From Panopea generosa (taxonomy: Eukaryota; Mollusca; Bivalvia; Adapedonta; Hiatellidae), in the NCBI GenBank assembly GCA_029582155.1, contig CM055896.1, forward strand, positions 30,991,609-31,055,608: a stretch of 64,000 bases of DNA. Reading direction: 5' to 3'. This document shows positions 4,726 to 61,113 of the stretch, piece after piece (within the stretch, counting starts at the first letter, position 1; each line of letters starts with the position of its first letter). A program made the position numbers and the translations under genes. The notes under the pieces are model-generated. The model did no database searches. It was given only the letters and a program-made list of their open reading frames with translations, and was not told where the DNA came from.

Positions 4726-4911
4726 CCCCGAATATTTCAACTTCACATACTATAAGCTTCACAAATTGTTCCGGACTATACAGTCTCAGGTTACGTGCTT
4801 GTATAAATAAGGTGAGGTTTCGTGTTGGAGAAGTCTTCCCTGTGTCATCATGAACTGTTATCCATGTGTCACTAGAATCATTTCTAGCTTGCATTTGGAA
4901 GTTCAATAACC
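4726..4911 (-). pseudogene. F5/8-type domain second half (equivalent of main exon 6)
   Basis: It encodes LLNFQMQARNDSSDTW through LIVCEVEIFGG with a GTATGT donor and phase 1 ends. The acceptor is a CAGCAG pair, so the exon could start at 4911 or 4914, adding or omitting one Ala without a frame change. Confidence 0.7.
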
Positions 4912-13770: not shown

Positions 13771-13809
13771 AGGTTTAATAACGACAAAAACGATGCCCTT
13801 GCTTGGTGC

Positions 13810-14175: not shown

Positions 14176-14259
14176 AAACGTTTGATTTTGCCAGACTGCT
14201 CATTCCGCGAGAGACTCAGAAGAGTGGAAGTCAAAGTCCGTTGAGTTATTATCCAAACC

Positions 14260-15600: not shown

Positions 15601-15602
15601 TT

Positions 15603-15800
15603 CAGTAGAACTTCGTTAACAGGAACACGGATGGCTACAACACCACATATAGCTCGAACCACTTATCTAGTGTCGGCAGAATTCCTATTCCGATATATAT
15701 TCATGTATGGCATGATGTTGAACAATAGTTGGCTCGAACAACCCTTAAGTCGTACTATTTTGTCCAGTCCCGTCAGTTCGAGGTACCTGAAGTTCTACTG
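15603..15800. mobile_element. MITE with pogo/Tigger-like terminal inverted repeats
   Basis: The 198-base element begins CAGTAGAACTTC and ends GAAGTTCTACTG, perfect 12-base inverted termini starting with the CAGT typical of pogo-type elements. A TA follows the right end; the left flank reads TT, so the TA target duplication is imperfect. It has no transposase frame, so it is non-autonomous. Confidence 0.7.
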
Positions 15801-16094
15801 TATATCCAATACACACATCATGTGGTTATAGTGGGGATATAACCCACAGAAGCAAATCAGTCCAAGTATCGATTCCTTCTAACAATGGCGCAAACATGGT
15901 CTGTCGCCACACGTTTGTTAGGACACTGAGTTGCACATTATCATATTACAAAAAGTGACTGTAATAAATGGAACAAGCCGTCTTGAATCAGTTGCATATT
16001 TGTGTGGTTTTGTATGATTTTTGTATTAATTTAACAGAAATAAGGTAAATTGTTTACTATTTGCAACCAATATGATGAAAAAAAGTATAAAAAC

Positions 16095-16316
16095 GTGGAT
16101 AGCATGGTTTAGTCGTATAACATCAGGACCAGGAACGAAACGTCCTGGGTCCGATCCTCCGCGACGACTAAGTGTGTTGTCTTTAAAAAAGACACAGACA
16201 CATTATCGTCATATGTTTACATGAAGTAATGGTTCTACCCGGAAACAATTCGGGTATAAATCGTGTAAAGTTGTGATAACTTGTTTTACAATCGATGTAA
16301 AATTAATGAGTTTAAT
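16095..16316 (+). mobile_element. tRNA-derived SINE, family 1
   Basis: A tRNA-like head (GCATGGTTTAGTCG as A box, GGGTCCGATCCTCC as B box) is followed by a body with GGTTCTACCC and a 3' end ACTTGTTTTACAATCG. The body matches copies at 31.0 kb, 43.6 kb and 53.6 kb. It lies just downstream of the receptor stop codon, opposite in direction, so the 3' untranslated region may run into it. Confidence 0.7.
16311..16316 (-). terminator. Possible ATTAAA polyadenylation signal of the receptor gene
   Basis: This is the first common poly(A) signal variant found downstream of the stop codon, about 290 bases away and within the 3' end of an inverted SINE. It is a weak call. Confidence 0.2.
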
Positions 16317-16603
16317 CAAACAGTTACTATAGATATTACTTAATTGCTGTGTTATCCTGTGAGTGTAGTTTACATGTCTGTAACATACGTTTTACTAAAT
16401 AAAGTAAAAAATAACACATGTCATATTCTCAGTATTTAACACGTGCATTGGTAGATATAATAAAATCTTCTGTCTAAATATGTATAATTAGTGTAGTGTC
16501 AAAGCTTTATACATGCTCAATATTTGGTAAACGGAAAACAGTGTCTTTTAAATTCTTGCCATTGTCATATGCCATTTTGGTACACACAATGAGATTGGAT
16601 ATC

Positions 16604-16675
16604 TCACACATTGGCATATGTGCTGGTATCCTGTATGTGCCGAAGAACAGCCTCATGGCAGAACTTGTATTGTTC
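16604..16675 (-). CDS. Receptor exon 30: C-terminus and stop
   Basis: 72 bases, acceptor TATATTACAG. It encodes [14 protein letters not shown], then STYANV and TGA at 16604-16606. No AATAAA was found in the first few hundred bases; the nearest variant is ATTAAA at 16311-16316, inside the SINE. Confidence 0.85.
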   Translation of the reverse strand, partial: EQYKFCHEAVLRHIQDTSTYANV

Positions 16676-17868
16676 CTGTAATATAAAAATATAATAGAAT
16701 TATGATAATAATGCAAACAATAAATAATTATATCCACTTGTGTTTGTAATATTTAGTATCGTATGGCAAATATGCTTATTATTTAATACAAATCAACAGT
16801 GTCAATCATTATGCTAAAAAGTATGTACATTCCTTTATATTCAATAAACGTTATACCAATCGTAAACCAAGCACATATAAACAAATAGTACAAAAGAAGC
16901 ATAATTGTTAATGCTCATTCCTATAACAATTTTATAAACAATATTATAGTTTTATATACAAAAAAAACAATATTAACGTACAAAGTTTGGTATGATCTGT
17001 TGACGAATTTGCCTCAAGTTTCTGATCACAGGCGGAATGGCGACCTCTTGTTCAATCCTCATTCTTTCCAAAACATTCATCAGAACAACAAACATACCGC
17101 TTCTCTCAGCTCCGTTCCTAATAGTAAAATGTTCACAAAAGGTTATTAATAATTTTTTATTGACTAAGTGCCTGTGATTTTATAAAATAAAGATTGGCAA
17201 TAACAGTCAAACATGTGATTCATTATGGTTCTGTTAAAGCGGCATAACAAGGTTTATTTTTAATAACAGAAAACACATCATTGTGTTTATCAACAACAAC
17301 TGGCAGTTTCTAGAGAAACTTTTATCAAATAATTGCATCAGATTATATCATAAATTGTTTCTGCGCAGTGTCCAAAGTATGCACAAGCAAATGCTATGCT
17401 AAATGACAGACTGCGAATTTATTATGCAACTCTACTCACACATCTGAAGTTATAGTCATATAAATTGGGACGCTGCACAGTGGCATATGAGATACATAGA
17501 AATATGCAACACTCTGCCGATTCTCACATGATATCTACGAGAATAACAATTATGAAACAGCACACACACCACACACAGATATTATGTTAGAGTTTTAAGT
17601 ATTATGAAAATATAACACTATATGAGAGATGTATATAAATATCTATTTTTTTGAATGGGGTTAAACCCAGTTTTAAACACATTTCGGGTTATATATGTCA
17701 TATCCAGTTTAAAAATTTACTGGTCGAGGAAGACCTCAGACTGAGTAGAACCACCGTCCTTCCGCAAATAACTGGGAACCTTCTCACATAAAGATTTTAG
17801 AATAAGCAGGACTCGAACCTACGACCTTAGCGGTGAGATGTAAGTGATCTTGAGACGGCGAATCAGAC

Positions 17869-17929
<61 letters not shown>

Positions 17930-20900
17930 ATATACAATTATTTTATCTAACAACATTTACATGTGCATATATAGTAAAAACGTTTTTGGCTTACAAGCAC
18001 TGAACAAGAATGGGGTTATTGTCTGACTGGCGTTGTTGTTCTGTAACTTCCTGTATGAGACTAAGTATGGCTTCATGGTCATGTGGTACTGTCTCTACAC
18101 GTAACCATTGTGTGAACAAAAGCTGCTTTACTTTCTGCTCCTTTTTCTGTAATCATATGTTATCAAAATACTTTTAAGTTATTACTTTTAAACGGCATGT
18201 CTGATAATTGGTTATTTGATATTAAAGGAACGAAAGAACTGAATATTTGTATTCATTTTATCTCGTCGTACATGTGCCCCTTTCATTAGTGTTAAGGTGT
18301 CTGTACCTATGAAAGTTACGCCTCCTGTCCAAAATCATTTTCTGTTTTTTTGTTATTTTTTTAAAAAAAATGTTGCTACTCGCATGTCTATGGACTCGGT
18401 TTGATTACATAATGCAGCGACAGGATGAAATATTTAACAGGAACGTTTACTTTAATAATTGATTATTTATATTTGTTCATCATTTGTTCATCAATTCAAT
18501 TTATATCTTTTATAGAAGTAAAATACATTTTGTTACGGTCAGCAGTAAATTAGTACATTGAATGTATTAAATGTCATAATGACATGATTTGAAAAATCAT
18601 ATTAACGTGGCGTAAATCTGTTAGTCCTTTGAACAACTAGGTCCTGGTGATAACCTATGTTATCATTTCATATGTTGTACATTTATTTATTATGATTATT
18701 TATACACTGATATTTTTATTTTGTTATGTTTGCTGTTTGTTTATAATGCTACCTGTACGACTCACGTTGTACTCAAACACATATATCAACATTGCATATA
18801 CGAATAATCATGAAAATGTGTACACGTATTCGAAAAACCTTAATATTAGTTACCTTGAACTGCATGCTGTAATTTCTAATCGTATAATTTCTTCTCTTTT
18901 CCTCTGACACTAGCTCCAAATGAAAGTGGCTAGTAGTTAAACTGCCCTTGTCTGGCAAATACATGCCAATCTAAATAAGAGAGAAATATCAAACAGAAAA
19001 AATATATGTCTCCCGAACAAATACACAATTCCTACTAACATTTGTTGCGTTGAGTTTATTGATTCAGATTGTTTTGATTTTGTCTTCTAGACGGAGACCT
19101 AACAAATTAAGCCTTTACAATTATAATAAGCTTAATAGCAATATAACCGTACATATATATGTAAGAGATTTAAATAAGCATGCCATATATACATGTATGT
19201 TTTTTTTTATAGAAATGCAAGCACTACGTAATTCACAAAACAATGGATAACATTTAGATAAAACTGTTTACAAAACAATATTAACGATAGAATATGAATT
19301 TTGAGACAAAAAAAGTATATTTAAAATAGCTCTGATACATGTATATACGATACTAAATGATTCAAGCATCTCACCTACATGTAACAGCAAAACAGAACAA
19401 ATTGAAAGCTTTATAATAACGGGAGAGTATTATCATATTTGTTTGGTGAGAATTTCAGAAATAATATTTTATTGAATTATGTTTAAATCAGTTGAGTTAA
19501 TAATTATGAGTTTTATGTTCTTTATCACATATAATCCAGCCGTTTCATTGGAGGTTTTAAATTATGTCTTACGATACAGACTTGATATTCATGGTGATCG
19601 AAAATGCTTGCTTTAGAAAAGCAAGCGTCTAATAAACAACAACATACATGTATCTCTTCATTGAATGGAAAACCGAACGATGCAAGTTTTAAATATGTCT
19701 ACTATTGCGGAATTAATATTAATACCACCGCATCAGCAGACGTTTTTATATTACTCCAGACGAAAATGAACTGCGATTTATACTCGAGAATGTTTCGAGT
19801 AAACAATGTATTCCGAAACTGTTTCTAGGTAAACAATTTTATAGCAAATAAAGTAAACTATGTAAAAAGTATTTTTTTATAATGATATGAACTACATTGA
19901 ATTGATAATTTATGGAAACTGAAGGTTATTATCTTTATTATATATTTTTTTCTCACCAGCTGTGATGTAGGGGTCTTGCCTTTATATTGACATTCATGAC
20001 ATTTTTTTCTATTACCTTTTCTGTTCCATTATCAGCAAACGTGACTATCACGTGTATATTCCGCTCATGGACAAGTCTGCAGCAGTCAATCGCCGTGTTC
20101 TCTAGTGGTGCTTGTGTTACAATAAAACCACGAAGTTTTCGATAACTCTGAAAAATCATAACATTTTATTAGAGAGACACATAATGATAAATCTGTAATC
20201 AAACATAATTATCATGATAGTTTAAACAAAACAATCGATGTAACATTAGCAAATATATGTAAAAAACCAATGGTTGAGATATTTAATGAATTAATAATTT
20301 ACTTCCCAAATTGATATTATTAAAATATGACGTGTAATAACTAACTAATAAACATTGTTTTCATTATCAAACAATCATACACAATACCAATAAACATCAC
20401 ATCATATGTTAGTTTTATTCATTTCAGTCAAATGAATTTTGAATAAGATATATTCATTCCTTAGAAACATCTCAACGTATGGAATGTCAAGACGTCAATT
20501 TATTTTACGACAATACATACATAACAGCTGAAGGTCATACTTACTGGTATGTAAACAGCGTTGATATAATCGTTACATCCAGGAACATGCGTCGATAGAA
20601 AATGTCGGTATTTATCAGCTGTAGAATAAAAGTAATAGTTTTACAAAATCAATAATACATTAAAATAAATACATATATACTACAAACCTGCATTTGTATA
20701 TTTATTGATTCTGTTCATGAAACGAACTGTTCAGGAACTACCAGTATAAAATTGTATGTTTATCTGTTAGGTCAATTTATGAATCATATGACCCAAGACC
20801 GTATGAAAATATTACTGTTCAATAATCAGTAACTATTTCAACATGAAATAATTATATTAATGGCAATTTTGTTATATTTCTAATCACGATCCCAAAGTAT

Positions 20901-23900
20901 TTTGCTTTCCAATTGTAGCGTACTTCAGTTTATTTCGTCCAGGAAGTAACATTTAGGGATGGATCTTCGATATTCATCAGCTATTAAAAGCATTAGTTAT
21001 ACAAGTAATACAATGGAAATACTATACAAAACTAAAAACTAGCGCATGGTAACATTGTATTATTTTATTATATAGCGTAAATTGTTATTTCAAATATAAC
21101 TATATACGTAGTTATAAATGCCATTCATGAAACAAACTGTTTAGTAATGACCAATATAAACTTGTTTAATGCTTACCTGTTATGTAAATAAATGAATGAT
21201 TTGACCCAAGGTCATATGATAATCATACTATTCAAGAATCAATACTTAATGATTCAATAAGAAATTATTTAATCGATGACAGTTTTATATTTGTTTAATT
21301 TCGTAATCACTAATATATTGTTCCAGGTCTTACCATAAGGCCGTTAGTTAGAATTATACATGAAGTTCATTATTAATTGATATTTGATATAACAATGCAA
21401 ATGATAAGATTAACAGAACAAATATAAATTATTGATGAAGTCTAAAATGTAACCAGTTAGTTAACACGAACACAAAGTAATTTTTAGTAAATTCAACTTA
21501 CACGCTAGGATATTGTTGTATCTGTTCTTGACTTTATTCTCGGGTAGTTTGGCCGTAGTGTATAGATCAACGTCATCGGAATGTTCTTTTTCATCAATAT
21601 CTTTTTTGGAAAGATAGACAACCTCTTCTTGCATCTGCATAATGGACAATATGTATGTATGGAACTACAAAATTATGTATTAAAACAATAACTGTTTGAC
21701 TTCAGTTAATTTATATATTTATCTTTTTTTGCAAGCATACTTAAATAATATAGCTAGGAATAACTTATTTTTATTGCAAGATAGAGACTAAATACCATGC
21801 TTACATTTACAAAAAGTGTTGTTCAAATTCAGTTATAGTTATATGATACCGACTTGTTATATAATCCTTTAACAATCATATATCTGTAGAAGTATAATTG
21901 AAGTTCGTATTTATGGAACAAGTTAACCACTTTGTGTGTGTCAGGTAAAATACTTAATGTCTAACTGCACTATCATTGCCATTAAATACTTTGGATCTAC
22001 ATGTAGACATGATGGAGATGCATGTACAAATAATAGAAATATAAAATTCCTTTTTTTCAGAACTTGTATTGAATTGGATTATTTATTCCCATCATTTGTG
22101 GAATAGCCTGTTTCCAAAAAGTAACCAGTGCAATGATATGAGATTTACACAAATCATATCGTGGTCAGTTTGTTAGCATATTATTTCTGCAAATTGATAT
22201 GTTAAAAAAAATTAGGTCACAAGATCACTGCTTTGTTCTGTTTATACTTGCAGATATTATATGTGCACAGAATAAAAATATTGCAGATTTCATTTTTTTT
22301 TTATAGAAAAATGAAAATTAACTTAACCATGGATCCCGATGGGGAAATGTAATATAGCGTCGAACCGTTCAGTTGTGCAATATATAATTACTTCGATGCC
22401 GATGAATATTACGACAAGATATATACTTAAAATTAAATTGTTTCAAAGCATAATTAGTATTTCTTTCTTACGTCAATTAGGCAACAAGTGATACTTACCT
22501 CAAACTGGGACATAAGACATGTCATTCCTGTCTGCTTGTCTATCTCTATCAGTTTTCTATATTCGTTTTCAAAATCAGATAAACGTATTTGCAGGCTGGG
22601 TAAAACCAGGGCCTCATAGACGATCTCGTGGAGATAACGATATTGACTCTGTTTTAGATAGTTTGAAATCTACATTCTATGGTTATCATTTCAAAATTGT
22701 AAGAATATTTCATAGGTTTGAGGTTCTAATAAAAAAAATCGCACCGAGGGTTAACGGTTTTGGTCGTTATTTCTTGGAATGACATTTTTTATCCAAACCA
22801 ACAAAATCCTGTCTGATTCGTTTTCTTGAATATGTTTATCTTATAAATTGTTTTACCACAACATCAAAAAGTATAAGTTTCGTCACATTTGTTTATACGT
22901 CAAGTAACAGCGTGAGTAGAGTAGAACATGCACGTGGATGGAATGTAGACAGTCATTCTTGATATGCAAAAAATCTATTTTCAGACATCAGCTCGAAGTT
23001 CCCGGAACCGGGTATCTCACGGGCTTTTTACAAACCTAGTTACATGTACAGTAACTACGGTCTCGAGTAATTGAATATTCTAATCCTAACTAATACCCAT
23101 TGTTTATTACATGTTTTTTACATTCCACCATTTTGTTATATAATGTATTCAATTGATACTTAAATACATGACGTCATCAAATAATATAGCTAAACCAGAA
23201 AAAAAACTTATTTTTCTGCACCTAAAAAGATGCAATTATGTATTTCTATATATTTATAATATTTCGTAAACATATATCATCTATTAATACTGAACTTTTT
23301 TAACGTATTCTTTATGCATTCTTTAAGCTAATTAGTTTGTGAGTCCGTATTAATAATGTCGGCTAATACAGAATTATAAACACTTAACACCTTATTAAAT
23401 ATACCTTTGGTTAAAACATCATTTTTACTTTAGCACTTACATGTTAGATATTAATGTACCGTACCTGAGTTTGAACCATGTTGACACGTTGCTGTCTCAG
23501 TTCCCGAACACACTGGTTCACGTTCACATACTCGAGTTGTCTACCCTGTTCATACAGGATATCAAGGGCGATAAATGTTCCAGTCCTTCCTACTCCAGCA
23601 CTAGACAGAGTGAGGTATAACTTTAACTGTCTCATATTTGATAATTATGCCTAATAGTTTTTGTACCATAATGTTCCAAAATGTATAAAAAAATTGATAT
23701 ACACCAAGTTTCTATGGGTAAAATATATATAGCAATTCTATCAAATTTAAAATATAGGATTATACGACATGGCCATATCATCTGTAATAATTAAACTTTA
23801 AATGCAGTGAAACAGTACTCATAGAAGGTATTGCATTACAAATACATTTTATAAAAAGAAGGAACTGAAACAAAACTTTGTCCTCTATGATAGACTTATC

Positions 23901-26900
23901 TACGCTCGTGCTCAATATCATTAACATCTCTCCGCTACGGTCAAAGGTTCGAGTAAAGTTCAGTCAAAATACTGAAAAATATTTTCCATTTATTTGCGAG
24001 AGCGCGGTTGATCTACTCAGATCACTGTCCATGAGTGTTTGTTTTTTCTCTACCAGTTAAACAGATTGTCATATACAATATGTTGAAAAGGGCGTTATCC
24101 CTCTCTATAGTAAATCAAATCTGGAAACGAAGTTACATGTAATCAGGTGGCTGGTACATGCTGTATGGAGTAGATAATTGGTTTATAATTCTGTTTTCTA
24201 ATACTTCTATAATATTAATTATGAAACGAAACACAGATATAAAGTCAACCTACATGATTCGTTTGAAAGATATACCAGACAAGTAGGACAGTATAACAGT
24301 ATATACGAATGGCTTACTCGTAGGTTTCATTTACATGTATTTATACAGGACCGGCCACAATGGCGTTTTATAAACCGACGAATGATGACATTCGTATACA
24401 CAAAAACAAATGAATCACGTGTTTGGTATGGCACTACAATGAAGTGCAAGTCACATAGGTCATACAGATGAAAGAGACGATATGTACCTGCAATGGACAA
24501 GCCAAGGGTGGGCAGACTCCTTGTCATCCATACGAACTTTGGACCAGAACTGTACCAGGCCTGTGTGTCCATTTGGTATACTTTTATCCGGCCATGCAGT
24601 GAACTGATAGTGAGTTATCGTTCGTAGTTTGTTCTGTGGTATCTGAAACGTTTACAGAACATTTATTTGGATTTATCTTTATTACCAAAATTATGTTTTC
24701 ATTGGAATCCTCATTCATCGGAAGGTTTCCAGGAACAAATGGTGAAATATACAGAACGCCACCAAGAAATATGAACATACATCACATCTTTAGTAGTTTT
24801 GTGTCCTTAATGTTTGTTTACACGTTCAATGCTTCCATTGCGTTTATATATATAAGGTCCTCCATGTCCGAAAGGTCTACGGAACTGTCGTCTAAAAACA
24901 TATTACCTATCACCGTTTTACTCAGATTCATTCTTGATACATGTATAATATAATATGATTTTTATGTGATATAAGTGGCATTTAAGTATATATCGAAAAT
25001 GTATAGATTTCGTTTTCAGATTAGTCTTTATATATATAATGTAAGAAATATTGCACTTTTTAGAAATTGAATTTACTTGCCTCATTGGTATATATATGAA
25101 CCTATACATGTGTTTTTTTATCTTAAAATAGTAATAATCATTGTATTTGAAAATGCCTTGTGTATCATAGCATTTAATTGTAAATTATTATCTAGTACTG
25201 TATATTTATTGTGTTGACTGCATAATCTTAAAATACCTGTTAAGTAATTGATAAGAACAACCCAGTTATTCCCCTTTTACACAAGTGATTCTGTTTTCGT
25301 TACCACTCACCGATTTAACACTAAATGTTCTTATTGTGAACTCCGCCATTACTTCCTCGGAGGTGACTGTTACCGATAGGGAGTCATAAAAATTCGGTTT
25401 ATCACTGTTCCAATACTGCTCACATTTATCCTATATAAATACAAAAAGTGACTAAATAAGTGATATTTTCTTTTTATTCGCCATGTGCTTTTGACATTTA
25501 CAATGCAATAGTATTTACACAGAAAACAAATGCTTGGAATACATGATTATTATTTATGCGTTATAAATGTACCATATTCAATAGCTTTAAATACTGTAAA
25601 AGTTGCTAGTAATGTGTTACCTTTCCCTCCTCTACAACGTTCGTTACCATGACAATTTTAGTAACATCCTTCTCCCAAATCATCCTCCAGAAATCCAAAA
25701 TGTTAACTTTCGTTGGTCCTGGAGTCCAAATTGAGACGCAAAGCATATCAAATTGAAACATATTGTGAGTGTAAGGAATTCATAAATTAACAAATAAGCG
25801 TTATGTGACCAACTATATAATTAGAATAGATGTGTTAAACATAAATCTACTGCATTGTATAACGAAAGTAAGATATTCGTACTTTATACGGTAATCAGAA
25901 TGCCATTTTTGAACTTCATAAAATAACAAAATCTTTTTTTTTCTAAGCGCGATCTATTAAAATAGGATAAGGATACTCACACATTTCGTTATATTTCATT
26001 TATTTCTATTTCAGAAAAAGTATAAAGAATATTGATATTTCATTATGCATTATTTATTCAAAGACGTGTACAAGGACACAGTAGTACGAATCTTGACATT
26101 ATGTGAATATACATATAGGCAACAAGTATTTTCATTGGAAAACAATTTTAGATACATATATGGTGGCATTGGGTAAAAATTCAAAAGGACCTTTGGAAAA
26201 TGTTAAAGTAACTGTATTCAATATATAAACGAAAACCACACATTAAATACAATTCAAATGTTGTTACTTATTAAAATTTATGTATATGCTGTTTTGTCAT
26301 CAACGAACTTATCTGTGCACGCACAGATATCAAACAAATTTAAAATATTAACAGATCTTCTAAATTATTATTATTTACGAAATTTGTTACAGAAAGTGTT
26401 TATGAATTATGCTTATAAATTCTTCGGATGCAATACCTTGTGCAGCAATGTATGCTTTCTCCATGCTGTGTCCCTAAAGAGGAAATGATACCACAGATAG
26501 TGCAAACAAATACTTCGCTATAATGTGTTCATAAATAACAAATAACAAGTTTACCAAGACGATCCTACTGATAGAGTAGCACTTGGGTTTGATATATTCA
26601 CATCCCAAAGTTATGTTGATAACATAAGCATGTTTCGTTAATGTTCGATCCATCAATATTCAGTAAGAAATATGAGTGATAGATGAGGTACAAGTTAATA
26701 TTTTTACCATAGGTCTAGACGGCGATTTGAAAAACAGCCAGAAAATTCACGTGTTTGACTCAATGAGCTAATGACATGCTTTTATAATTCTACAATACCT
26801 ATTTATAATATTACAAAGTTCAACATTTTCCTAAACCTTATTATATACATATATTTATATGAATAAGATGTTAAATAAAGAAAACCAATGTCATCAATTA

Positions 26901-50900: not shown

Positions 50901-53900
50901 CTCTCTTATAAGGACATCATTCAGTTTTATACGACAAATAAAAGACCTGTGTTTTATTTTTGCAAATGTCAAATTACTTTGTAATGCACCATGTCTAAAA
51001 ATATATGATTAAACCCACCCTAGCAGCAATTTCCGAGCTGGGAGCTCATTGAATAAGACCAAGAATCGTAATGTTCGGACCCTATTGTCGATGCGTCTCC
51101 GTTTTAAACTTATCTATTTCAATCCATTCGGTCCCATGATTTCATTACAAGATTATGCATTATAATGTGCTTTTTTTTAAATACTTGGACTACGATTTAA
51201 CATCTTTTCGTTAGATTTATCGGGAATTAAGTAGCACGTATGTAAACACTGCCATTACTGTACCAACATGAAATGCATTTTTGAAACGTCTTATGAAAAA
51301 ACAAAAGATTCGTGAAGACATGTTCATGACGAATCCACGTTGGGCATGGTGTCAGCAAGTCACAAGGACTCACCAAGTCACTAAGTCCACTTGTAATTCA
51401 ACCTGGACGACCATCCAGCCTACGTGGTGCAAGGCGTCAGCAAGTGAATGGAGTCAGCAAGTCTACCACGACTCACCAAGACACCAAGTCTACTTGTAAG
51501 TCAACTGGACGACCATCCAGCATACGTGGTGCATGGCGTCAGCAAGTCCACCACGACTCACCAAGTCACCAAGTCCACTTGTAAATCAACCTTGACGACC
51601 ATCAAGCCTACATGGTGCATGGCGTCAGATAGTCCATTACGACTCACCAAGTCACCAAGTCCACTTGTAAGTCAACCTGGACGACTATCCAATCTACGTG
51701 GTGCATGGCGTCAGCAAGTCTACCATGACTCACCAAGTCACCAAGCCCACTTGTAAGTCAACCTGAACGACCATCAAGTCTACGTGATGCATGGCGTCAG
51801 CAAGTCTACCACGACTCACCAAGTCACCAAGTCCACTTGTAAGTCAACCTGGACGACCATCCAGCCTACGTGTTGCATGGCGTCAGCAAGTCCACCACGA
51901 CTCACCAAGTCACCAAGCCAACTTGTAAGTCAACCTGGACGACCATCCAGCCTACATGGTGCATGGCGTCAGCAAGTCTACCACGACTCACCAAGTCACC
52001 AAGTCCGCTTGTAAGTCAACCTGGACGACCATCCAGCCTACGTGGTGCATGGCGTCAGCAAGTCTACCACGACTCACCAAGTCACCAAGTCCACTTGTAA
52101 GTCAACCTGGATGACCATCCAGTCTACGTGGTCCGTCAGAAATTACATCTGATCGGTCATTTATTTCACCTGGTCCCCTCACAAGTACACCGAGAAGGTG
52201 TATTTCCAAATATAACAGTATGTGTGATCACTGCGAATAAGTTTTCAAATAAAGATTTGGATGGTCACATCTTAAAAATAAATAAATATGAGGACGTGTG
52301 AAATACGTGGGAAATGCTATATTCAAAGTATACAATTTCAATTCACGTAACAAATGCATGATATTAACGAACCCTTGTCAGCCAGTCCTAGTATTTTCAA
52401 GGCAGTTGAAATATACCAGTTTTCATTTGATCTGTCACAATTACATCAAATGCACTCAAAAAAGGGACAATCATTTTTCTGTATTTTTTTGTATTTCAAA
52501 TATACTTTATGATTTTTTGAGTAAATAGTGGTATTAAACATCACTTATCACATAAAAACGGGAGTTATCATTCTTCCGAATGTCAAATTACATGTTTGAT
52601 CCTAAAACAGAACAGTGGGGTATGATACACACCGCATTGCTTTTGTTATATATATCTGCAAAGTTTCTATCAATTAAAATTTATTTAACCGTTTAATGTC
52701 CATGTAATTGTGACTACACAACTGCTTCGTACATTATAAAGCAAGATAAATGCATTTTATCGTTAATGTTGGCAAGAAAACTTATTTACCATTGAAGCTA
52801 TTCCAAGTACTGTATAACTGGTTACAGATCAATACCCAGTACAAATAAATGCTATACCCAATACAACACGATTTTCACATGGCAAAAATAAGACGTTATT
52901 GAGTAAAATGTACACATAGAAACTGGTTTTTGAATGTTAAGGTTAGCAGAGAATCGCATGTTTCATCATTAAAGTACAGTTTTGAGTGACAACTGTAATA
53001 CTGAACTTTAGAAAAAAGAATAGGGCATTATCCGCTGTACGTTGTACCATCGTGATAATAAATTAACACAGTTTTCTTTCAAGCACAGAAACCAACAACA
53101 CATATTTAGTGTTTTGTCGCAATTTAAACATTATGAGATAACTTTGTATGTATTTCACGAAAAGTCATTCGGGGCCAAAATTCGACCCTTATCTTACCTG
53201 GTTCTTTATAAAATGAACCTACCTGCTTATTCGATAATGTCATGAACGGAGCGCTGTATTATAACTTATCTTCATTATACAATTGTACACATATGTTTGA
53301 GATATTTTATAACTCCATTTACCTAATTTGTTTGTGTCTGTTACCAGCACAAGTCCCGTGATAAGTTCCTGCCGAGGTAGCCAGAGTCTCCACCAAGGGA
53401 AGCTATCATTTGTCGATGTCCTGCTGCACGTTGTTATGTTACCATCTATGGCTCTCTCAGAATACTGAGGTGGTTTAATGTTACTACTATGCTGACTTTT
53501 TTCCATGGATGTAATATCTCCTGTATCGAGGGTCACAGCAAATAATAAATATACACTTTTGATTTATTTTACTACGATTGTGTTCATTACGACTTATATA
53601 AATAACGTTCGAAGCCTTCCTATGTAGAACCAGTCTGAAGCATATGCTTATATTTAGTGTCTTGCTAAAGGACACCACACGTAGCCGTGATTGGGGATCA
53701 AACCCACGACTCTTCGATCCTGGGTCCGATGACCTACCACTTGACCACGCACTTCAAACAGATAAATAGACAACTATTAAAAAATCCATGAATACATCCA
53801 ACTGGTATGGTTTGAAAAGCACCCTATCTGTGAATAGTTGACGCAGCATGTCAAATATTTCACAATATGTCTCAAATACATCTATTACAAATTGCATTAT

Positions 53901-56900
53901 AACAATACTGTAAATTATATAATTGATATAAGTAAATAATGCCTAGAGTCTACAAACATTCAGATACCCCCCTCGCACTATTTAACACATATCAGCTCTA
54001 AGAACAGCTAAATGATATTAAATATACCGGTGCTTTATCAACAGCTATATAAGTGTGCAAATACAGGTTTTCAACAAAAAGCTAGAGAATATTATATACA
54101 TAACCGTTTGATAAACTGCTAGATGATATAATAATGTTCTATGAAGAAGTAAAGTATACCACACATATAGGAACATTTCAAACAGATGAAACCAACGTTG
54201 AACCTCTCAGAGGTAATATGTTTGTGCTTGAGACGGATATGTTCATTTAATTTACTTGGTTTTGTATTACTAAATTAATTTGTATTTACTTTACTTCGGT
54301 AAATCATTGATATTATATTGCCAAAGAAATATTGTAAAAAAATAATTACAATGGAAGTTATATCGATTTTATTAATATAACACGGTCTACCGTAACTAGT
54401 GACTTTAACGTCAGCTAAAACTTCGTCAGGCTGTTATCAACAGCTGGGAAGCTGTAAAATCTGAGAATGATTGAACCCTACTGTTAATAATGGTGAAAAT
54501 TCTACGAACTGTATTGACATCCAGGTCCCATCCAAGCATTAGCACATCCGGAAGTATTACAATTTCCATCCATTTCATCACATTGTTCCGTTACATTATT
54601 ACAGTGACACATGTGGTTGCATGTGGATCCGAATCGCATCAGTCCATTTGTATCTGATTGACATGTGGCATCTGTAAGACACAACGACACTCTTTATCAA
54701 TCTGCAAGTCTGCAAAATAAATCTGTAAAATACAACAGTCTCCATCAATAATTATATAATTTTTGTTTTCATCCTATACTAATACTAAATATATATCTTA
54801 ATAAATGCAATTCTGTATTTGATAACAATTGATACATCTCCAAGGACGGCATACTGACTATACTATAAACGTAAAAAAATATGGTCTGTTAAGGCAAACA
54901 TCGTTTAAAGATGATCATTGAAAACGTGCATAACAGCATACTATAGCCAAGCGTCTAATAAATATCGGATTATTTAAAACACTACATTATGACATCAGTA
55001 AAAGTAATTTGGTATATTTATTGTAATTAAATGTTATTTAAAACGCTGTGTTTTCAACCAAAACAGTGTTTATTTCAAAATCATTTAGTTATTAGCAATT
55101 GTTTACCCGAAAAAAGTGTATCAGGACTTAACGCTATAAAGTTTTTGACAAATATATCAAAATAGATAAAAGCATATCAGTATCATTAACAAATATAAAC
55201 CGTATAGTTCAGTCTGTAAAATCCACCTAAATGTAAAAAAAATCGATATGTAAATTGGAATTGCAAATTTGAAATTAAACCCCAATTCTAAAAATATACA
55301 TCACTTAAATACTGTTTGAAGACCTTCGTATCGTCACTCTGACACTTTGTTTGAAGAAACAATGTTACTACGTATAAGCCTGTAAAAAGGATCAAATTGA
55401 AATCAAAGTGAAACACCGAGACTCATTTAATATATCACAAAATATATTGCCATTTAAAACACGAAATCTATTTTTGTCTAACGTAGGACAATCCGTTTCA
55501 ATATATTATTTTGGCATGTTTAACCAAATAGTTTTGACAATACGGGGTCAGTGAGTATTAATAGCCACAGTATATTGGCAACCAAATCATTTCAGCTACT
55601 TTTGAAATTTGAAATAAATCCTGATGTATTCTCTTTAACTTTACAAGACGCAGCATTGGTTTAAACGATAGTCGAACGTTTTGCAGTTTATGAGTATTTC
55701 CTGTTACACAGATAGTGTCTTAATGCAAAGTATGTAAATAAACAATTGTTGACTCAAATAACTATGTATATTCTTGTGTTAAAACGAAGTTTATTATCGA
55801 GTGCCCTTTAAAAGCATATTGGATCATTTGCATCTGAAAATGTTGCATGTTTTTTATTTTATGAAAGACATTCGTTTTAGATAATTGCAGTGACTATATG
55901 AAACCTTATTGATTAAATAGGTTGATAACATACCAAATTCACTACCTTTCGTTACACCAAGTAGGTGAAAATACCACAACGATCTAACTGTTCAGTTCAT
56001 TTTAATATGCACAAAGTAAATGAACTATTACAATCGTTTGGTTGATTATTTATTTCATAACTAGATTTGACACAATACTTATACTTGAGTTTTTTTTATT
56101 CCTTAAATATATATCTACCATTTATATTTTACGTATTTATAAACAGTGGGCGAACTTAGGTGTCATTGATCTCGGTTATGATCTAAAATGAATTGAACAG
56201 GTTTACCTTTTAACTACAAAGTAAATATATCGATCAAAAGTATGTACACCAGACACAATTCAATATAACTATGCATTGTATGTAAATCTCGCATTCTTAC
56301 GTGCTTACCGGTAGATATATAATAGCGTTAAAGGCTTATTGTATTGAAAAAACGAAGATTTAGTTATAAAGTGAGTCCCTATCATCCTTTCAAAGCGCAG
56401 ACGAAATGTTTATTTAACAAAATTGAATATGAGAAAATATTTTTGATGGTTCAAAGTTTGGCTCAATGCTCTCGTATGGTATGGCAACAACCTTATGTTT
56501 CAGACCCAAAATATAGATGATTCTACAGCGTTTAATCGGAATTAAATGTAGATACTGTTGTATTGATTATGGTTCTTTATGATATGCCTATTTTAGGATT
56601 ATCTCCGTCTAAATTACAAGTTAATTTAAACCGTTTACACACTTTTTTCGTGATGACCGATACTTAAAATTTAATGCATCAAAAATGATATAATTTAGAG
56701 AACGCCGTTGATTATCACCAAATGAATCAGGGACTTATAGCTAGCAAATTATAGTAGCTGATACTTTTATTTAACTTGAAAACATAATTAATTTTATTGA
56801 AGGATTTTCCGTTTTTAAACTTAAATACATGCTTATATTAACTTCTGTATAACTACGTGTCACCAAAAAACTTAAATGGTAGGCCTTTAAGTATTAGTGA

Positions 56901-59900: not shown

Positions 59901-61113
59901 GAGCGACGAATTGTTTTATTTTAAAGAATTTATGTGTACAAGACAACTAAATACAAATTATATTTCAGACTACGGAAATGACAAAAACGTTGCAAAAGTA
60001 GTTGAGGATCGTATTAACTTTACAACGAGCACCACTTTATTTATAAATACGGTTATCTCCTGGATGTCTATATACTTCGCTTTGAATAGTTTATACATTG
60101 ATAATGAACTACATCAAGTTACTGTTGGCAAACGGAGTGCCTCAAAAAGAGAAAATGCAAGAGACAGTTGGAATTCAACAATTCTCATCAAAACGACGAC
60201 GACGGGGATGCCTTTGAAATTGAGGACATATTGGAATATAATAATGGATTAAAATCTGATATTTTATATTGAGTTCAGTCATCATCAAATACAGATATGG
60301 CACATTGAGTAGATTATAAGACACATATAAATCACATGCACAATCATTCACATCCAGGAAAGTTTACTGGACAACAAAATCTATATAAAGTAGACTAAGT
60401 GCAAGACGAAATCAAATTTAAAAGTACGTTTGGTTTCGACCTGTTCACAACAAAACAGAGAAAGTAGATGTGTGGACTATTAGCGGAGCGGTTGTGCAGG
60501 CGATTGCATGACGGCCAATCACGCCATAGGCTGCAAGTTCGATCGTAAGCATTGTCCGATGTTTCCAAAACACTCAGTAATGGCTCTGAAGCGGACTCGA
60601 GAGCGTTTCATATCATCTCTGAGTTTTTTTTCACAATAAATTGGCATAAACTTAAAAAGCGCAGTACATACTAATGTCGATTTGCGCTTGTACATTAAGT
60701 AATTCGGTGTTATTCCTTGCTTAAACTTTTTATTCCACTTTATATTAATTCATATCATGCGAAAGTTATAATGAAACGCACACCAGACCTTCACATCATA
60801 ATAAGCCCATCTCTGTCAGGGACTACTACCGCAGCAAACATATCATGTGCACATAACAAGTTTATCAGCTACGAGTAGATAAGCGTTAATGAATTATTCA
60901 GTTTTATCTGCTCTGTCTTTTTGTAATTGTTTAGTACACGAATTATGAACAAAAGATCAGACAGATATATTGAATGCGGCATATTTTAATAATACTCGTT
61001 CATTACACTTAGTCTAGGTAAATCAATTTAAAAATGCACTTACGTGTATAACGAGTCTTGAGGACAAACATTGTAAACAAGGTATAAACTAACACTATCA
61101 TTTTCCCGTCCAT
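16604..61113 (-). CDS. Receptor-type tyrosine phosphatase with EGF and F5/8 (fucolectin-like) ectodomain
   Basis: Thirty coding exons, each with AG/GT borders and matching phases, total 4,053 bases and encode 1,350 residues. In order: signal peptide (about 1-22); EGF-like module (24-77); two F5/8-type discoidin domains (78-219, 220-349); six EGF-like modules (350-630); membrane helix (about 641-664) followed by basic RYRR; juxtamembrane region with IYMN (Tyr714) and YYN (Tyr754); phosphatase D1 with KNRY (813-816), WPD (Asp951) and [10 protein letters not shown] (Cys983); D2 with CLNGAERSG (Cys1281, Arg1287) but WLR in place of WPD. It ends TYANV. D1 should hydrolyse phosphotyrosine at the inner face of the plasma membrane; D2 is probably regulatory. 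The ectodomain suggests glycan or protein ligand binding. Transcripts could start at either of two first exons. No orthologue is named because this domain order does not match a vertebrate RPTP I know. Confidence 0.9.
16982..17117 (-). CDS. Receptor exon 29: D2 P-loop equivalent
   Basis: 136 bases, phase 2 in and 0 out, acceptor ACTATTAG, donor GTACGT. It encodes [14 protein letters not shown] and ends RQQIIPNF. Cys1281 and Arg1287 of C-x5-R are kept but the loop is CLNGAERSG instead of CSAGVGRTG. Confidence 0.87.
17700..17870 (-). mobile_element. tRNA-derived SINE, family 5, in intron 28
   Basis: The minus strand shows a tRNA-like head with GGTTCGAGTCCTGC as B box and GGTCTGATTCGCCG near the 5' end, followed by a body with CTGAGGTCTTCCTCG. 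A long TA microsatellite adjoins its 5' end. It lies inside the intron between exons 28 and 29. Confidence 0.55.
17872..17927. repeat. (TA)n microsatellite
   Basis: About 28 uninterrupted TA units adjoin the SINE at 17700-17870. Confidence 0.9.
17995..18146 (-). CDS. Receptor exon 28: D2, degenerate WPD region
   Basis: 152 bases, phase 0 in and 2 out, acceptor GATTACAG, donor GTAAGC. It encodes [15 protein letters not shown] and ends NPILVQC. The WPD motif reads WLR, so the general acid is missing. Confidence 0.87.
18854..18970 (-). CDS. Receptor exon 27: D2
   Basis: 117 bases, phase 0-0, acceptor CTTATTTAG, donor GTAACT. It encodes [10 protein letters not shown], then [14 protein letters not shown], equivalent to D1 exon 20. 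Confidence 0.85.
20016..20147 (-). CDS. Receptor exon 26: D2
   Basis: 132 bases, phase 0-0, acceptor ATTTTTCAG, donor GTAATA. It encodes [19 protein letters not shown], then [13 protein letters not shown]. It covers what two exons (18 and 19) cover in D1. The DFWRM core is replaced by DCCRLV. Confidence 0.85.
20545..20618 (-). CDS. Receptor exon 25: D2
   Basis: 74 bases, phase 1 in and 0 out, acceptor TTCTACAG, donor GTAAGT. It encodes SDKYRHFLS, then [11 protein letters not shown]. The usual YD-x-SRV is changed to SDKYRHF. Confidence 0.85.
21502..21634 (-). CDS. Receptor exon 24: start of D2
   Basis: 133 bases, phase 0 in and 1 out. It encodes [20 protein letters not shown], the D2 counterpart of the KNRY loop. 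Its 3' border has the same phase as exon 16 of D1. Confidence 0.85.
22499..22648 (-). CDS. Receptor exon 23: end of D1 and linker
   Basis: 150 bases, phase 0-0, acceptor CTAAAACAG, donor GTAAGT. It encodes [14 protein letters not shown], then linker sequence [11 protein letters not shown]. With exon 22 it makes the QTQ-x-QY element. Confidence 0.88.
23465..23600 (-). CDS. Receptor exon 22: D1 P-loop
   Basis: 136 bases, phase 2 in and 0 out. It encodes [14 protein letters not shown], completing [10 protein letters not shown], and ends [10 protein letters not shown], the start of the Q loop. All key catalytic residues are present. Confidence 0.92.
24488..24642 (-). CDS. Receptor exon 21: D1 WPD loop and catalytic cysteine
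   Basis: 155 bases, phase 0 in and 2 out, acceptor CGTTTCAG. It encodes [18 protein letters not shown] (general acid Asp951) and ends HPWLVHC, the nucleophile Cys983. Confidence 0.9.
25311..25430 (-). CDS. Receptor exon 20: D1
   Basis: 120 bases, phase 0-0, acceptor TTTATATAG, donor GTGAGT. It encodes [10 protein letters not shown], then [11 protein letters not shown], matching the KC-x-QYWP region of PTPs. Confidence 0.9.
25621..25718 (-). CDS. Receptor exon 19: D1
   Basis: 98 bases, phase 1 in and 0 out, donor GTAACA. It encodes [14 protein letters not shown], then [15 protein letters not shown], the conserved DFWRM and VMVTN strands of PTPs. Confidence 0.9.
26437..26473 (-). CDS. Receptor exon 18: 37-base microexon of D1
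   Basis: Between CTCTTTAG and GTATTG lie 37 bases encoding [12 protein letters not shown] plus one base of Gly. It supplies the missing YIAAQG that must precede [10 protein letters not shown] of exon 19, and the phases fit (0 in, 1 out). Without it D1 would lose a core strand and the frame. Confidence 0.85.
26961..27037 (-). CDS. Receptor exon 17: D1
   Basis: 77 bases, phase 1 in and 0 out, acceptor TTTTTCTAG, donor GTAAGT. It encodes [13 protein letters not shown], then [11 protein letters not shown], a canonical PTP segment. Confidence 0.9.
27360..27447 (-). CDS. Receptor exon 16: D1 phosphotyrosine loop
   Basis: 88 bases, phase 0 in and 1 out. It encodes SLPKAL, then [14 protein letters not shown], the KNRY substrate-recognition loop of classical PTPs; YDHSRVVL follows in exon 17. 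Confidence 0.9.
27877..28082 (-). CDS. Receptor exon 15: juxtamembrane region and start of D1
   Basis: 206 bases, acceptor TTTTAACAG, donor GTAAGT, phase 1 in and 0 out. It encodes [10 protein letters not shown], then [10 protein letters not shown] and DDIFHEQFI, the helical segment that precedes phosphatase domains. Confidence 0.85.
28179..28445 (+). mobile_element. SINE, family 2, 5'-truncated, in intron 14
   Basis: It begins within the tRNA-like B box (GGTTCGATCCCC) and continues through GTTCTAGGTCTGGTCG and GGTGGGGTATCAT-type body sequence to a CAACAACAACAA tail. The body matches the fuller copy at 57.06 kb. An open frame here is incidental. Confidence 0.75.
28806..28963 (-). CDS. Receptor exon 14: juxtamembrane region with IYMN motif
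   Basis: 158 bases, phase 2 in and 1 out, acceptor TTTATAG, donor GTAATA. It encodes an acidic and Ser-rich stretch ending [12 protein letters not shown]. Tyr714 in YMN fits the pYxN consensus for Grb2-type SH2 domains. The borders are fixed by phase agreement with both neighbours. Confidence 0.75.
29347..29467 (-). CDS. Receptor exon 13: transmembrane helix
   Basis: 121 bases, phase 1 in and 2 out. After [10 protein letters not shown] comes a helix of about 24 residues rich in Val, Ile, Leu and Ala (641-664) with a GG near its outer end, followed by basic RYRRNN as stop-transfer. This sets the ectodomain outside. Confidence 0.85.
29480..31030. other. Intron 12, distal part
   Basis: No receptor exon was found here. 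A GC-richer patch at 29.77-30.0 kb has a minus-strand open stretch (for example [18 protein letters not shown]) without family match or splice support. It may be an old mobile-element piece. Confidence 0.35.
31042..31252 (-). mobile_element. tRNA-derived SINE, family 1, in intron 12
   Basis: The head reads GTGGTCTAGTGGTAGAGC (A box) and GTGTTCAATCCTCC (B box), then a body with GAGCAAGACAC and TACTGGTTCTACCC, ending near ACAATCGAAGTAAA. It is the best-preserved copy of this family in the window. Confidence 0.8.
31740..32040. other. GC-richer patch in intron 12, unidentified
   Basis: An 80-codon minus-strand frame spans it but shows no recognised domain, and the surroundings lack exon borders in phase with the receptor. 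It probably derives from a mobile element. Confidence 0.3.
32855..32992 (-). CDS. Receptor exon 12: EGF-like module 7 (type B)
   Basis: 138 bases, phase 1-1, acceptor TTTACAG, donor GTAAAT. It encodes [17 protein letters not shown] through YKNTTRCVD, the partner of exon 10 and the last extracellular module. Confidence 0.85.
34230..34373 (-). CDS. Receptor exon 11: EGF-like module 6 (type A)
   Basis: 144 bases, phase 1-1, acceptor TTTATAG, donor GTGGGT. It encodes [18 protein letters not shown] through [12 protein letters not shown], the partner of exon 9. Confidence 0.85.
34880..36740. other. Intron 10, proximal part, nothing recognised
   Basis: AT-rich sequence with several chance open frames on both strands; no exon with usable borders and phase was seen. 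Confidence 0.4.
36750..38090 (+). repeat. Purine-rich degenerate tandem repeat, unit about 400 bases
   Basis: The anchor AGGGTGAnnATnAGGTA recurs at about 36989, 37411, 37814 and 38001, followed each time by a GAGAAC-type and then AACAATGT-type string. A second motif, GGTGATAATGAT then ATTGAGCATGTGAGA, occurs at about 37140 and 37560. The plus strand is strongly A/G-rich. Long open frames on the minus strand are by-products of this bias. Confidence 0.65.
38721..38858 (-). CDS. Receptor exon 10: EGF-like module 5 (type B)
   Basis: 138 bases, phase 1-1, acceptor TTTTCAG, donor GTAAAT. It encodes [17 protein letters not shown] through YRYTTLCVD. It is a near-copy of exon 12. Confidence 0.85.
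39140..40625. repeat. Nested tandem repeat: 165-base units in a 586-base higher-order unit
   Basis: GAGATAGGGATT occurs at about 39404, 39661, 39826, 39991, 40247 and 40412, giving spacings of 257, 165, 165, 256 and 165. The pattern repeats every 586-587 bases, so two near-identical higher-order units lie head to tail. Common strings are GCAAAACTTTAACCA and ACAAGGGCAATAATTTG. It lies in the intron between exons 9 and 10. Confidence 0.85.
40600..40680. repeat. GC-rich end of the repeat array
   Basis: After the last unit comes GTGTGACGCCGACGCCCG and then CCGAATAGTCGAG. I recall similar strings as ends of common dispersed repeats in bivalve genomes, but this is not verified. Confidence 0.4.
41246..41312. 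repeat. Inverted repeat with 20-base arms
   Basis: AATAAGGCGTGAATGGACAGC at 41246-41266 pairs with GCTGTCCATAACGCCTTATT at 41293-41312, differing by one or two bases, around a T/A-rich loop. It sits at the left edge of the unmatched stretch. Confidence 0.65.
43610..43782 (+). mobile_element. SINE, family 1, degenerate, in the exon 9-10 intron
   Basis: The body strings AAGCAAGACACCTT and TACTGGATCTACGC, then TTGTTTCTCAATCAAGGTAA and a TAAATAAATAAA end, match the 31.0 kb copy. The tRNA-like head is poorly preserved. Confidence 0.55.
44261..44404 (-). CDS. Receptor exon 9: EGF-like module 4 (type A)
   Basis: 144 bases, phase 1-1, acceptor TTTTATAG, donor GTGGGT. It encodes [18 protein letters not shown] through [12 protein letters not shown]. 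It is a near-copy of exon 11. Confidence 0.85.
44724..44757. repeat. (AAT)n-type microsatellite
   Basis: An imperfect run of AAT and ATG units in the intron between exons 9 and 8. Confidence 0.6.
45643..45780 (-). CDS. Receptor exon 8: EGF-like module 3
   Basis: 138 bases, phase 1-1, acceptor CTGATAG, donor GTACGT. It encodes [17 protein letters not shown], then [18 protein letters not shown]. There is no in-frame ATG, so the exon is easy to miss. Confidence 0.85.
46541..46681 (-). CDS. Receptor exon 7: EGF-like module 2
   Basis: 141 bases, phase 1-1, acceptor TACTACAG, donor GTACAT. It encodes [17 protein letters not shown] through [13 protein letters not shown] with eight cysteines. Confidence 0.85.
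47036..47218 (-). CDS. Receptor exon 6: second F5/8-type domain, C-terminal half
   Basis: 183 bases, phase 1-1. Acceptor TTTCAAAAG, donor GTATGA. It encodes [16 protein letters not shown] through [10 protein letters not shown], closing the second domain. Confidence 0.85.
47760..47966 (-). CDS. Receptor exon 5: second F5/8-type domain, N-terminal half
   Basis: Acceptor TATTTAAG, donor GTATGT, 207 bases, phase 1-1. It encodes [39 protein letters not shown] and VHILTS, typical of fucolectin-like domains. Confidence 0.85.
48883..49110 (-). CDS. Receptor exon 4: first F5/8-type domain, C-terminal half
   Basis: Acceptor TTATTTCAG, donor GTAACA, 228 bases. It encodes [28 protein letters not shown] and [12 protein letters not shown]. 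It completes the domain begun in exon 3, 4.2 kb upstream. Confidence 0.85.
50320..50553 (-). mobile_element. tRNA-derived SINE, family 4, in intron 3
   Basis: The minus-strand head shows GCCTCATTCGGTATCGCG and GAGTTCGAATCCCA (A and B boxes) followed by a body containing CAGTTATTGGCGGAGATTG. The same body occurs at 57.85-58.09 kb. Confidence 0.7.
50829..50844 (+). repeat. 16-base G run next to (GT)n
   Basis: An uninterrupted run of 16 G follows GTGTGTGTGT. It is capable of quadruplex formation in principle. It lies in intron 3. Confidence 0.8.
51330..52135 (+). repeat. 86-base minisatellite in intron 3
   Basis: GGCGTCAG recurs at 51535, 51621, 51707, 51793, 51879, 51965 and 52051, exactly 86 bases apart, with more diverged units on the left. 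Each unit carries CACCAAGTCCACTTGTAAGT and GACGACCATCC. About nine units are present. It splits the two exons of the first F5/8 domain and produces open frames that are not genes. Confidence 0.92.
53323..53520 (-). CDS. Receptor exon 3: first F5/8-type domain, N-terminal half
   Basis: 198 bases, phase 1-1. It encodes the discoidin-like start with [13 protein letters not shown] and PWWRLWL followed by [11 protein letters not shown]. Donor GTAAAT is good. The acceptor (CCCTCGATACAG) has a poor pyrimidine tract, and a SINE begins only about 40 bases upstream of it. Confidence 0.8.
53561..53757 (-). mobile_element. tRNA-derived SINE, family 1, beside exon 3
   Basis: The head shows GTGGTCAAGTGGTAGGTC and GGGTTTGATCCCC; the body matches the copy at 31.0 kb. 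Its 3' end lies about 40 bases upstream of the exon 3 acceptor, in the same orientation as the gene. Confidence 0.75.
54510..54671 (-). CDS. Receptor exon 2: first EGF-like module
   Basis: Acceptor GTCTTACAG, donor GTTCGT, phase 1-1, 162 bases. It encodes an eight-cysteine EGF/laminin-type module ([24 protein letters not shown]). It is set apart from the other six EGF modules by the two F5/8 domains. Confidence 0.8.
55100..55635 (-). repeat. Third copy of the EGF-pair intron block
   Basis: This stretch matches the intron blocks at 33.63-34.13 kb and 40.78-41.23 kb, with landmarks such as CAATACGGGGT preceded by TTTTGGCATGTTTA, and AAATCCTGAT at the end. It lies about 430 bases upstream of exon 2, as the other blocks lie upstream of type B exons, so exon 2 may be an older relative of them. 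Confidence 0.7.
55640..57050. other. Intron 1, nothing recognised
   Basis: AT-rich sequence with no EGF-type or other exon on the minus strand that fits the phase 1 frame of the receptor. Confidence 0.4.
57058..57371 (+). mobile_element. SINE, family 2, near full length
   Basis: A tRNA-like head (GATGGTGTAGAGGTTGAGCG and GTGGGTTCAATCCCGGG) precedes a body with GTTCTAGGTCTGGTCGGC, AATGTGACTTGATGGGG and a 3' end near CGACGCTAATCACCATACAA. The copy at 28.18 kb shares the body. Confidence 0.8.
57848..58092 (-). mobile_element. SINE, family 4
   Basis: It shares body strings with 50320-50553, such as ATCTCCGC followed by AACTGATAACTT and CCCACTTGA. The tRNA-like head on the minus strand is degraded. 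Confidence 0.6.
58190..58385 (+). mobile_element. tRNA-derived SINE, family 3
   Basis: The head shows GTAGTGTAGTGGATAAAG and GAGGGTTTGATCCCCAG; the body has GTACTGGTTCTATACAGG and GTATTGAGAGAGGCTCG. The copies at 60.47 and 61.98 kb appear related. Confidence 0.65.
59305..59374 (-). CDS. Receptor exon 1b: alternative signal peptide
   Basis: Same length (70 bases) and phase as exon 1a. It starts MDETIIVF, has a hydrophobic core ([14 protein letters not shown]) and ends GRYT, where 1a ends TRYT. The donor is GTTAGT, weaker than that of 1a. It joins exon 2 equally well (Tyr at the junction). It is either an alternative first exon or a decaying copy; the open frame favours use. Confidence 0.6.
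59400..59560 (-). promoter_or_regulatory. Putative promoter of first exon 1b
   Basis: Sequence upstream of exon 1b is recognisably homologous to that upstream of exon 1a at the same distances, including an ETS-type AGGAAGTA at 59477-59484 and a shared ATTCGC just beside it. The leaders are similar too (TATTAAATAC before ATGG). Promoter function is inferred from conservation between the copies. Confidence 0.4.
59911..60252 (+). other. 113-codon open frame between the two first exons, probably not a gene
   Basis: No domain, signal or codon pattern was recognised. The overlapping frame to 60270 contains [18 protein letters not shown], which faintly recalls a chromodomain strand; neither frame has splice support. 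Confidence 0.15.
60475..60655 (+). mobile_element. tRNA-derived SINE, family 3-like
   Basis: The head shows TTAGCGGAGCGGTTGTGC and GCAAGTTCGATCGT. The body shares GGACTCGAGAGCG and TTCATAT then TCTGAG with the inverted copy at 61.98 kb. It lies between the two alternative first exons. Confidence 0.6.
61044..61113 (-). CDS. Receptor exon 1a: signal peptide
   Basis: ATG at 61111-61113 opens 23 codons with a hydrophobic core ([13 protein letters not shown]) and ends phase 1 at a consensus GTAAGT donor. It joins exon 2 to give a His codon. A paralogous exon lies 1,739 bases downstream. Confidence 0.75.

Follow-up and report, generated by a model that had tools for sequence, protein, structure and literature searches.

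In the window, the 64,000-nucleotide stretch analysed here (C3:30991609-31055608 of a 1.47 Gb assembly), the main locus is, by its gene model, an intact receptor-type protein tyrosine phosphatase (RPTP) gene. It lies on the minus strand and runs from an ATG at 61113 to a stop codon at 16604 in 30 exons. The model was obtained by anchored splice-junction scoring, in which exons were anchored on peptides from a six-frame translation and GT-AG pairs that keep the phase were then scored. The scoring covered 28 junctions, and the junction between exons 1 and 2 was only checked on joining. All 29 introns are of the GT-AG type with agreeing phases, and the coding sequence of 4,065 bases (1,354 residues) contains a single, terminal stop. 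The initial annotation had proposed one receptor phosphatase of thirty exons at 16604..61113, and our model has the same ends and exon number; all phases close, and paralogues repeat the exon order. The length of 1,350 residues given there became 1,354 on joining. The acceptors of exons 13 and 21 were placed at 29467 and 24642, though 29458 scored higher and 24633 slightly higher, the uncertain exon 14 donor was placed at 28794 with 28854 as an alternative, and the exon 29 donor was set at 16982 on homology, though 17030 scored higher. In view of these four choices, the length of the protein may differ by some residues from 1,350. The exon 2 donor and the exon 5 acceptor are weak. The least certain part of the model is exon 1 (61044..61113), which supplies the ATG and a hydrophobic N-terminus (putative signal peptide), together with its 6.4 kb intron. 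Counterparts of this exon are present in two paralogous copies, in C at 95% over 20 aligned residues of 23 and in C' at 100% over all 23. A single-frame search of the window gave no match to the phosphatase signature, because an intron splits it, and an Rfam search of the window gave none at gathering scores.

The predicted ectodomain follows the order EGF - F5/8 - F5/8 - EGF x6 that was originally read from the sequence, and this order is borne out in the joined protein by two Pfam F5/8 matches and seven eight-cysteine modules. Exon 2 (54510..54671) encodes the first EGF-like module. The first F5/8 (discoidin) domain (48883..53520) is split between exons 3 and 4 (53520-53323, 49110-48883), and the second (47036..47966) between exons 5 and 6 (47966-47760, 47218-47036). 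The six distal EGF-like modules (32855..46681) occupy one exon each, namely exons 7 to 12 (46681-46541, 45780-45643, 44404-44261, 38858-38721, 34373-34230, 32992-32855). Every exon from 2 to 12 is flanked by introns of phase 1, a symmetry that is typical of extracellular modules which have been shuffled. In the joined protein, the two F5/8 domains were detected by PF22633 (2e-16) as well as by PF00754 (1.2e-12). On separate pieces, PF22633 matched the first with 5.1e-08 and the second with 8.4e-10, and the first domain alone scored 26.0 bits against PF00754, below the cut-off of 28.2.

The assignment of the small modules as EGF/laminin-type stands for its EGF part, but not for its laminin part. 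Each of the seven modules has exactly eight cysteines, and the distal modules 1-3 match the EGF modules of Tie2 in the PDB (2.7e-12). No Pfam EGF model reached its cut-off for any of the seven, the best match being the stabilin EGF model to the first module (E 0.18). The EGF stretches of the window gave nothing with the laminin-type EGF model PF00053 up to an E value of 5, in a search that did detect this model in the C14 paralogue. The EGF type is all that the gene has in common with Tie2, the angiopoietin-1 receptor, a kinase that also carries Ig and FN3 domains. The EGF pairs of exons 9-10 and 11-12 look like a duplication, with equal cysteine spacing and similar sequences; paralogue D carries a further repeated pair of this kind, and copy C has no exons 9-11. 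Tandem repeats were seen in two introns: eight copies of an 86-base unit between exons 3 and 4 (51346-52132), also present in C and C', and units of about 165-175 bases between exons 9 and 10 (39146-40607), repeated in C'.

The suggestion of a lectin-type receptor is not supported. The nearest solved relatives of the second discoidin domain are F-type lectins (FBP32, 1.8e-07; Sm-hPAF, 5.8e-07), for which the fucose motif HX24RXDX4(R/K) has been described (PMC5712786). Even in a relaxed pattern, this motif was found in none of the four complete domains, two from the window gene and two from D, nor in three single exons, each of which is too short to hold the whole motif. The likeness to F-type lectins lies in the similarity of the second domain, whereas the window domains lack the fucose-binding motif and are embedded in a transmembrane enzyme. 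Since the motif is missing in both domains of both genes, a role as fucose lectin appears unlikely, while a protein, a lipid or another glycan would be candidate ligands.

A single transmembrane helix, recognized by eye in exon 13 (29347..29467), separates the ectodomain from the phosphatase part, with agreeing phases on both sides. It is followed by a juxtamembrane region in exons 14-15 (27877..28963; 28963-28794, 28082-27877). Exons 16-22 (23465..27447; 27447-27360, 27037-26961, 26473-26437, 25718-25621, 25430-25311, 24642-24488, 23600-23465) encode the phosphatase domain D1 (PF00102 6.8e-77). Exons 23-30 (16604..22648; 22648-22499, 21634-21502, 20618-20545, 20147-20016, 18970-18854, 18146-17995, 17117-16982, 16675-16604) encode the end of D1, the second phosphatase domain D2 (1.3e-50) and the stop. 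Together, the two Y_phosphatase domains match PF00102 with 4.6e-125. D1 spans the whole model and contains KNRY, WPD and HCX5R, which we take to be the classical PTP motifs. D2 has WLR where WPD is expected and has thereby lost the acid (WPD) loop, but it retains the CX5R pattern in QCLNGAERSG. In RPTPs, D1 holds the activity and D2 regulates, and ligand binding or clustering alters substrate access.

The cytoplasmic part is closest in the PDB to RPTP-alpha (1.9e-121) and RPTP-sigma (3.2e-119); the single-domain chains of kappa and mu scored 248.8 and 247.5 bits. A transmembrane helix followed by D1 and D2 is what the gene shares with the two-domain vertebrate RPTPs of groups R2B, R4 and R2A, which we take to comprise kappa, mu and rho, alpha and epsilon, and LAR and sigma, respectively. 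It differs from them in the WLR of D2 and in its ectodomain: FN3, Ig, MAM and carbonic anhydrase domains, one or other of which marks the subfamily ectodomains of vertebrate RPTPs, had no Pfam match at E up to 0.1 in the joined protein. The initial remark that vertebrate RPTPs carry other ectodomains agrees with a review of these regions, in which a term search gave no occurrence of EGF or discoidin (PMC10815196). Automatic protein-database annotations may well hold proteins of the architecture described here. Among the titles and abstracts listed in searches of mainly open-access literature, no description of a discoidin/EGF RPTP or of an array of such genes was found. By term searches, two clam genome papers do not mention phosphatases (PMC7831173, PMC11592408), and a paper on R3 RPTP evolution uses EGF once, and discoidin and mollusc not at all (PMC5336234).

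The joined model rests on genomic sequence, and it could be argued that ectodomain and phosphatase are separate neighbouring genes that were joined by hand. The paralogues speak against this. Paralogue D (31.40-31.46 Mb), 0.4 Mb from the window gene, can be joined through 31 of 31 junctions in phase and without a stop, and has the order EGF-F5/8-F5/8-EGF(9)-TM-D1-D2, with nine distal EGF modules instead of six; its exon 1 was not found in the region read. Copy C (31.19-31.23 Mb, minus strand) and copy C' (31.23-31.27 Mb, plus strand, head-to-head with C) repeat the order with losses. In C, EGF4-6 are absent, the reading frame is broken in EGF1 and EGF2 contains a stop. In C', no counterparts of exons 18-20 and 22 were seen and exon 21 is split in two. 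Both copies lack most of exon 6. Finally, the order discoidin, TM, D1, D2, taken from the nearest markers on the same strand, was found at 14 of 14 D1 loci in C3:29.5-32.6 Mb. The exon chain of D and this constant marker order make two separate genes unlikely. As the phases of the window gene also close throughout, with the transmembrane exon between the two parts, an artificial joining is in our opinion hardly credible.

The comparison with the paralogues gave different answers in different parts of the gene. Measured against D, the synonymous divergence of the window gene reaches 1.26 and 0.83 in its first and second discoidin domain and 1.23 in EGF2-3, and falls to 0.63 in the transmembrane and juxtamembrane part, 0.20 in D1 and 0.015 in the D1 end and D2, with zero synonymous change in exons 25-30. 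The fall is not smooth, with 0.32 in EGF1, 0.45 in one F5/8 exon and 0.45 in EGF4-7, where pairings are not one-to-one. Several EGF pairings with D, like those of EGF4-6 with C, are best matches only. In total, 169 of 352 synonymous sites are changed in the ectodomain, and 3 of 198 in the other part (Fisher p 5e-37). At the DNA level, introns included, identity to D is 96.3% over 13741..20407 (6,686 aligned bases, unstranded; the compared D block stops there) and 88.8% over 20410-24720, and beyond about 27.5 kb little except exons aligns. For C, there is no such fall along the gene. Introns align over most of its length in pieces of about 80-95% identity, reaching 98.6% in a 5.5 kb piece at the 5' end, and exons with a true counterpart have synonymous divergences of 0 to 0.35 throughout. 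The ectodomain excess calculated for C (p 5.6e-06) is inflated by EGF4-6, which are absent in C and were paired with other modules. Paralogue E (C3:32.53 Mb) was read in one tract only, 3,000 bases long and covering the D1 end with its introns (21726..24723, unstranded). There it is 99.4% identical to the window, but has only 89.7% identity to D and 89.8% to C. Its discoidin exon is 58% like that of the window gene and 86% like that of D, which is likewise only 58% identical to the window exon. The D2 exon of E is 90% like that of the window gene, and that of D 94%.

The window gene is thus a mosaic, with an ectodomain like C, part of D1 like E, and a D2 region like D. The grouping of the window gene, D and E changes from ectodomain to D1 and again to D2, which simple duplication along a tree would not produce, and because different parts are closest to different paralogues, genes of the array appear to have exchanged segments. 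The exchange may have occurred by gene conversion or by unequal crossing over, which the data do not tell apart. Assembly is difficult where tandem copies are long and nearly identical, and uncollapsed haplotypes or misjoined copies might imitate a mosaic. Haplotypes, however, would match along the whole gene, whereas the identity seen here shifts within the gene and differs by partner, and we consider an assembly artefact very improbable.

The extent of the array was assessed in whole-genome searches with one marker exon each for discoidin, TM, D1 and D2. On C3, the count of phosphatase genes came to 14 or more, one of them with a visible break in D1, and that of discoidin units to 58 or more. 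The first exon of the second discoidin domain has 63 matches in the genome, 57 of them in C3:28.9-32.6 Mb, one at C3:27.3 Mb and five elsewhere. Among the 58 exons on C3, seven contain a stop and one is a fragment. This number is a lower bound, since a search with the exon of D adds more broken pieces in the array. By position, 14 units belong to phosphatase genes and 44 do not. The 14 D1 loci consist of 13 whole exons and the two pieces in C', and the array holds 14 of 16 genomic matches of the TM exon, one counterpart at each locus. For D2 the share is 18 of 24, including four orphans, two of them with a stop. Genome-wide, scoring 150 of 169 candidates gave at least 119 matches of the D1 exon, and other clusters of them lie on C1, C14 and C19.

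Seven of the 14 loci share D1 at 94% identity or more. The six of them other than the window gene have TM exons at 92-95%, and four of these six have discoidin exons at only 58-64%. At ten loci, E among them, the discoidin partner was assigned as the closest unit upstream. Five loci (29.5-30.5 Mb) have diverged throughout (TM 49-74%, D1 76-82%, D2 65-80%), and the near-constant phosphatase is therefore a feature of only part of the array.

The excess of discoidin units could also be accounted for if one phosphatase served several upstream ectodomain units, selected by promoter choice or alternative splicing in the manner of the clustered protocadherins. Ectodomain modules that all have phase 1 would be interchangeable at splicing, and a hand count of same-strand discoidin units upstream of the seven phosphatases at 31.02-32.53 Mb gives 3, 3, 3, 3, 4, 3 and 6. 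The other seven loci, however, have 1, 1, 1, 1, 2, 3 and 7, so that the pattern is irregular, some distances between unit and phosphatase exceed 100 kb, and the window gene and D each own a complete chain. Moreover, four units are followed by a TM-like exon of another type. Exons of this second type lie at C3:30944706, 31160113, 31478043 and 31835492, and in each case a discoidin unit without an assigned phosphatase stands 7 to 18 kb upstream on the same strand. Over 26 of 35 residues, three of these exons share 96% identity with the fourth. On balance, a shared phosphatase appears improbable. The window itself contains part of a neighbouring discoidin/EGF unit on the minus strand (4139..6859, exons near 6859, 5732, 4911 and 4258), for which no phosphatase exon was seen in the next 60 kb downstream.

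The array may alternatively be an ordinary family of adhesion-type RPTPs, in which tandem duplication and concerted evolution are neutral and the outer domains are under relaxed constraint, without any repertoire. Against D, pieces of the ectodomain have dN/dS values of 0.24-0.61, and the overall value against the broken copy C' is 0.78; the value of 1.48 for the D1 end and D2 against D comes from three synonymous changes. The ratio of nonsynonymous to synonymous changes differs weakly between ectodomain and phosphatase in the comparison with C' (58:19 vs 9:9, p 0.046), and not in that with D (p 0.24). With dN/dS below 1 in the ectodomain and a weak or absent excess of amino-acid changes, diversifying selection is not supported. 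The broken copies C and C', the stops in seven of the 58 discoidin exons and the five loci with diverged TM and phosphatase parts also fit a neutral family, as do RPTP clusters with FN3 or EGF ectodomains elsewhere, which suggest that RPTPs expand generally in this genome. Such a family must nevertheless explain why four of six loci with conserved D1 and TM exons have such different discoidin exons. We regard it as possible, but less likely than not.

The reading that we consider likely is that the window gene is an intact RPTP gene of a tandem array whose members exchange segments, and that this array would provide receptors which differ in specificity but have their output in common. Segment exchange would leave several copies with nearly the same transmembrane and phosphatase part under strongly differing discoidin domains. 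The ectodomain, a discoidin pair on an EGF stalk, would bind a cell-surface, matrix or microbial ligand, and occupancy or clustering might move or inhibit D1, with D2 in a regulatory role. The array would then be a germline receptor set of different specificities with a common, dephosphorylating output. The recognition or immune role proposed in the initial annotation is supported circumstantially by the existence of the array and by its mosaic copies, and not by the domains, and a diversified recognition family would fit the array. More tentatively, and with considerable doubt, the array of more than 3 Mb could be a germline recognition repertoire that signals by dephosphorylation, in which the TM-phosphatase part is recombined under diverging ectodomains and the 44 of 58 phosphatase-less units act as decoys, partners or ectodomain donors. 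A family with a shared phosphatase and divergent discoidin/EGF ectodomains would be a testable candidate for invertebrate recognition by dephosphorylation, and its mosaic copies allow the process of exchange to be measured.

The other RPTP clusters were each sampled in one 10 kb stretch. The C1 copy has an FN3 domain (Pfam fn3 3.8e-10 in an open frame), whereas on C14 and C19 very long open frames encode ectodomains with many EGF modules (PF00053 8.1e-31 for C14). By eye, the C14 and C19 copies resemble the window gene in the succession of EGF-like ectodomain, TM-like stretch and phosphatase exons, and no discoidin domain was noticed in the three stretches. In a search for linked tyrosine kinases (PF07714, 147 of 784 candidates scored), none of the matches listed falls in C3:28.9-32.6 Mb, the nearest being at 28.64 Mb.

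Some observations concern neighbouring parts of C3. In the block at 30.93-30.99 Mb, no phosphatase exon was found behind the discoidin unit. Its TM-like exon and three further copies were considered as the family TM exon and rejected, as the resemblance falls in another frame. Within C3:30931609-30991608, at about 30.948-30.953 Mb, long open frames unrelated to the family lie between the EGF exons of another unit. Two of these frames had no Pfam match, and the run is perhaps a mobile or virus-derived insertion. Beside two D1 loci (C3:29577864-29578428 and 30225280-30225834), three phosphatase-like stretches, each with a stop, stand in a row within about 570 bases, which perhaps reflects exon multiplication.
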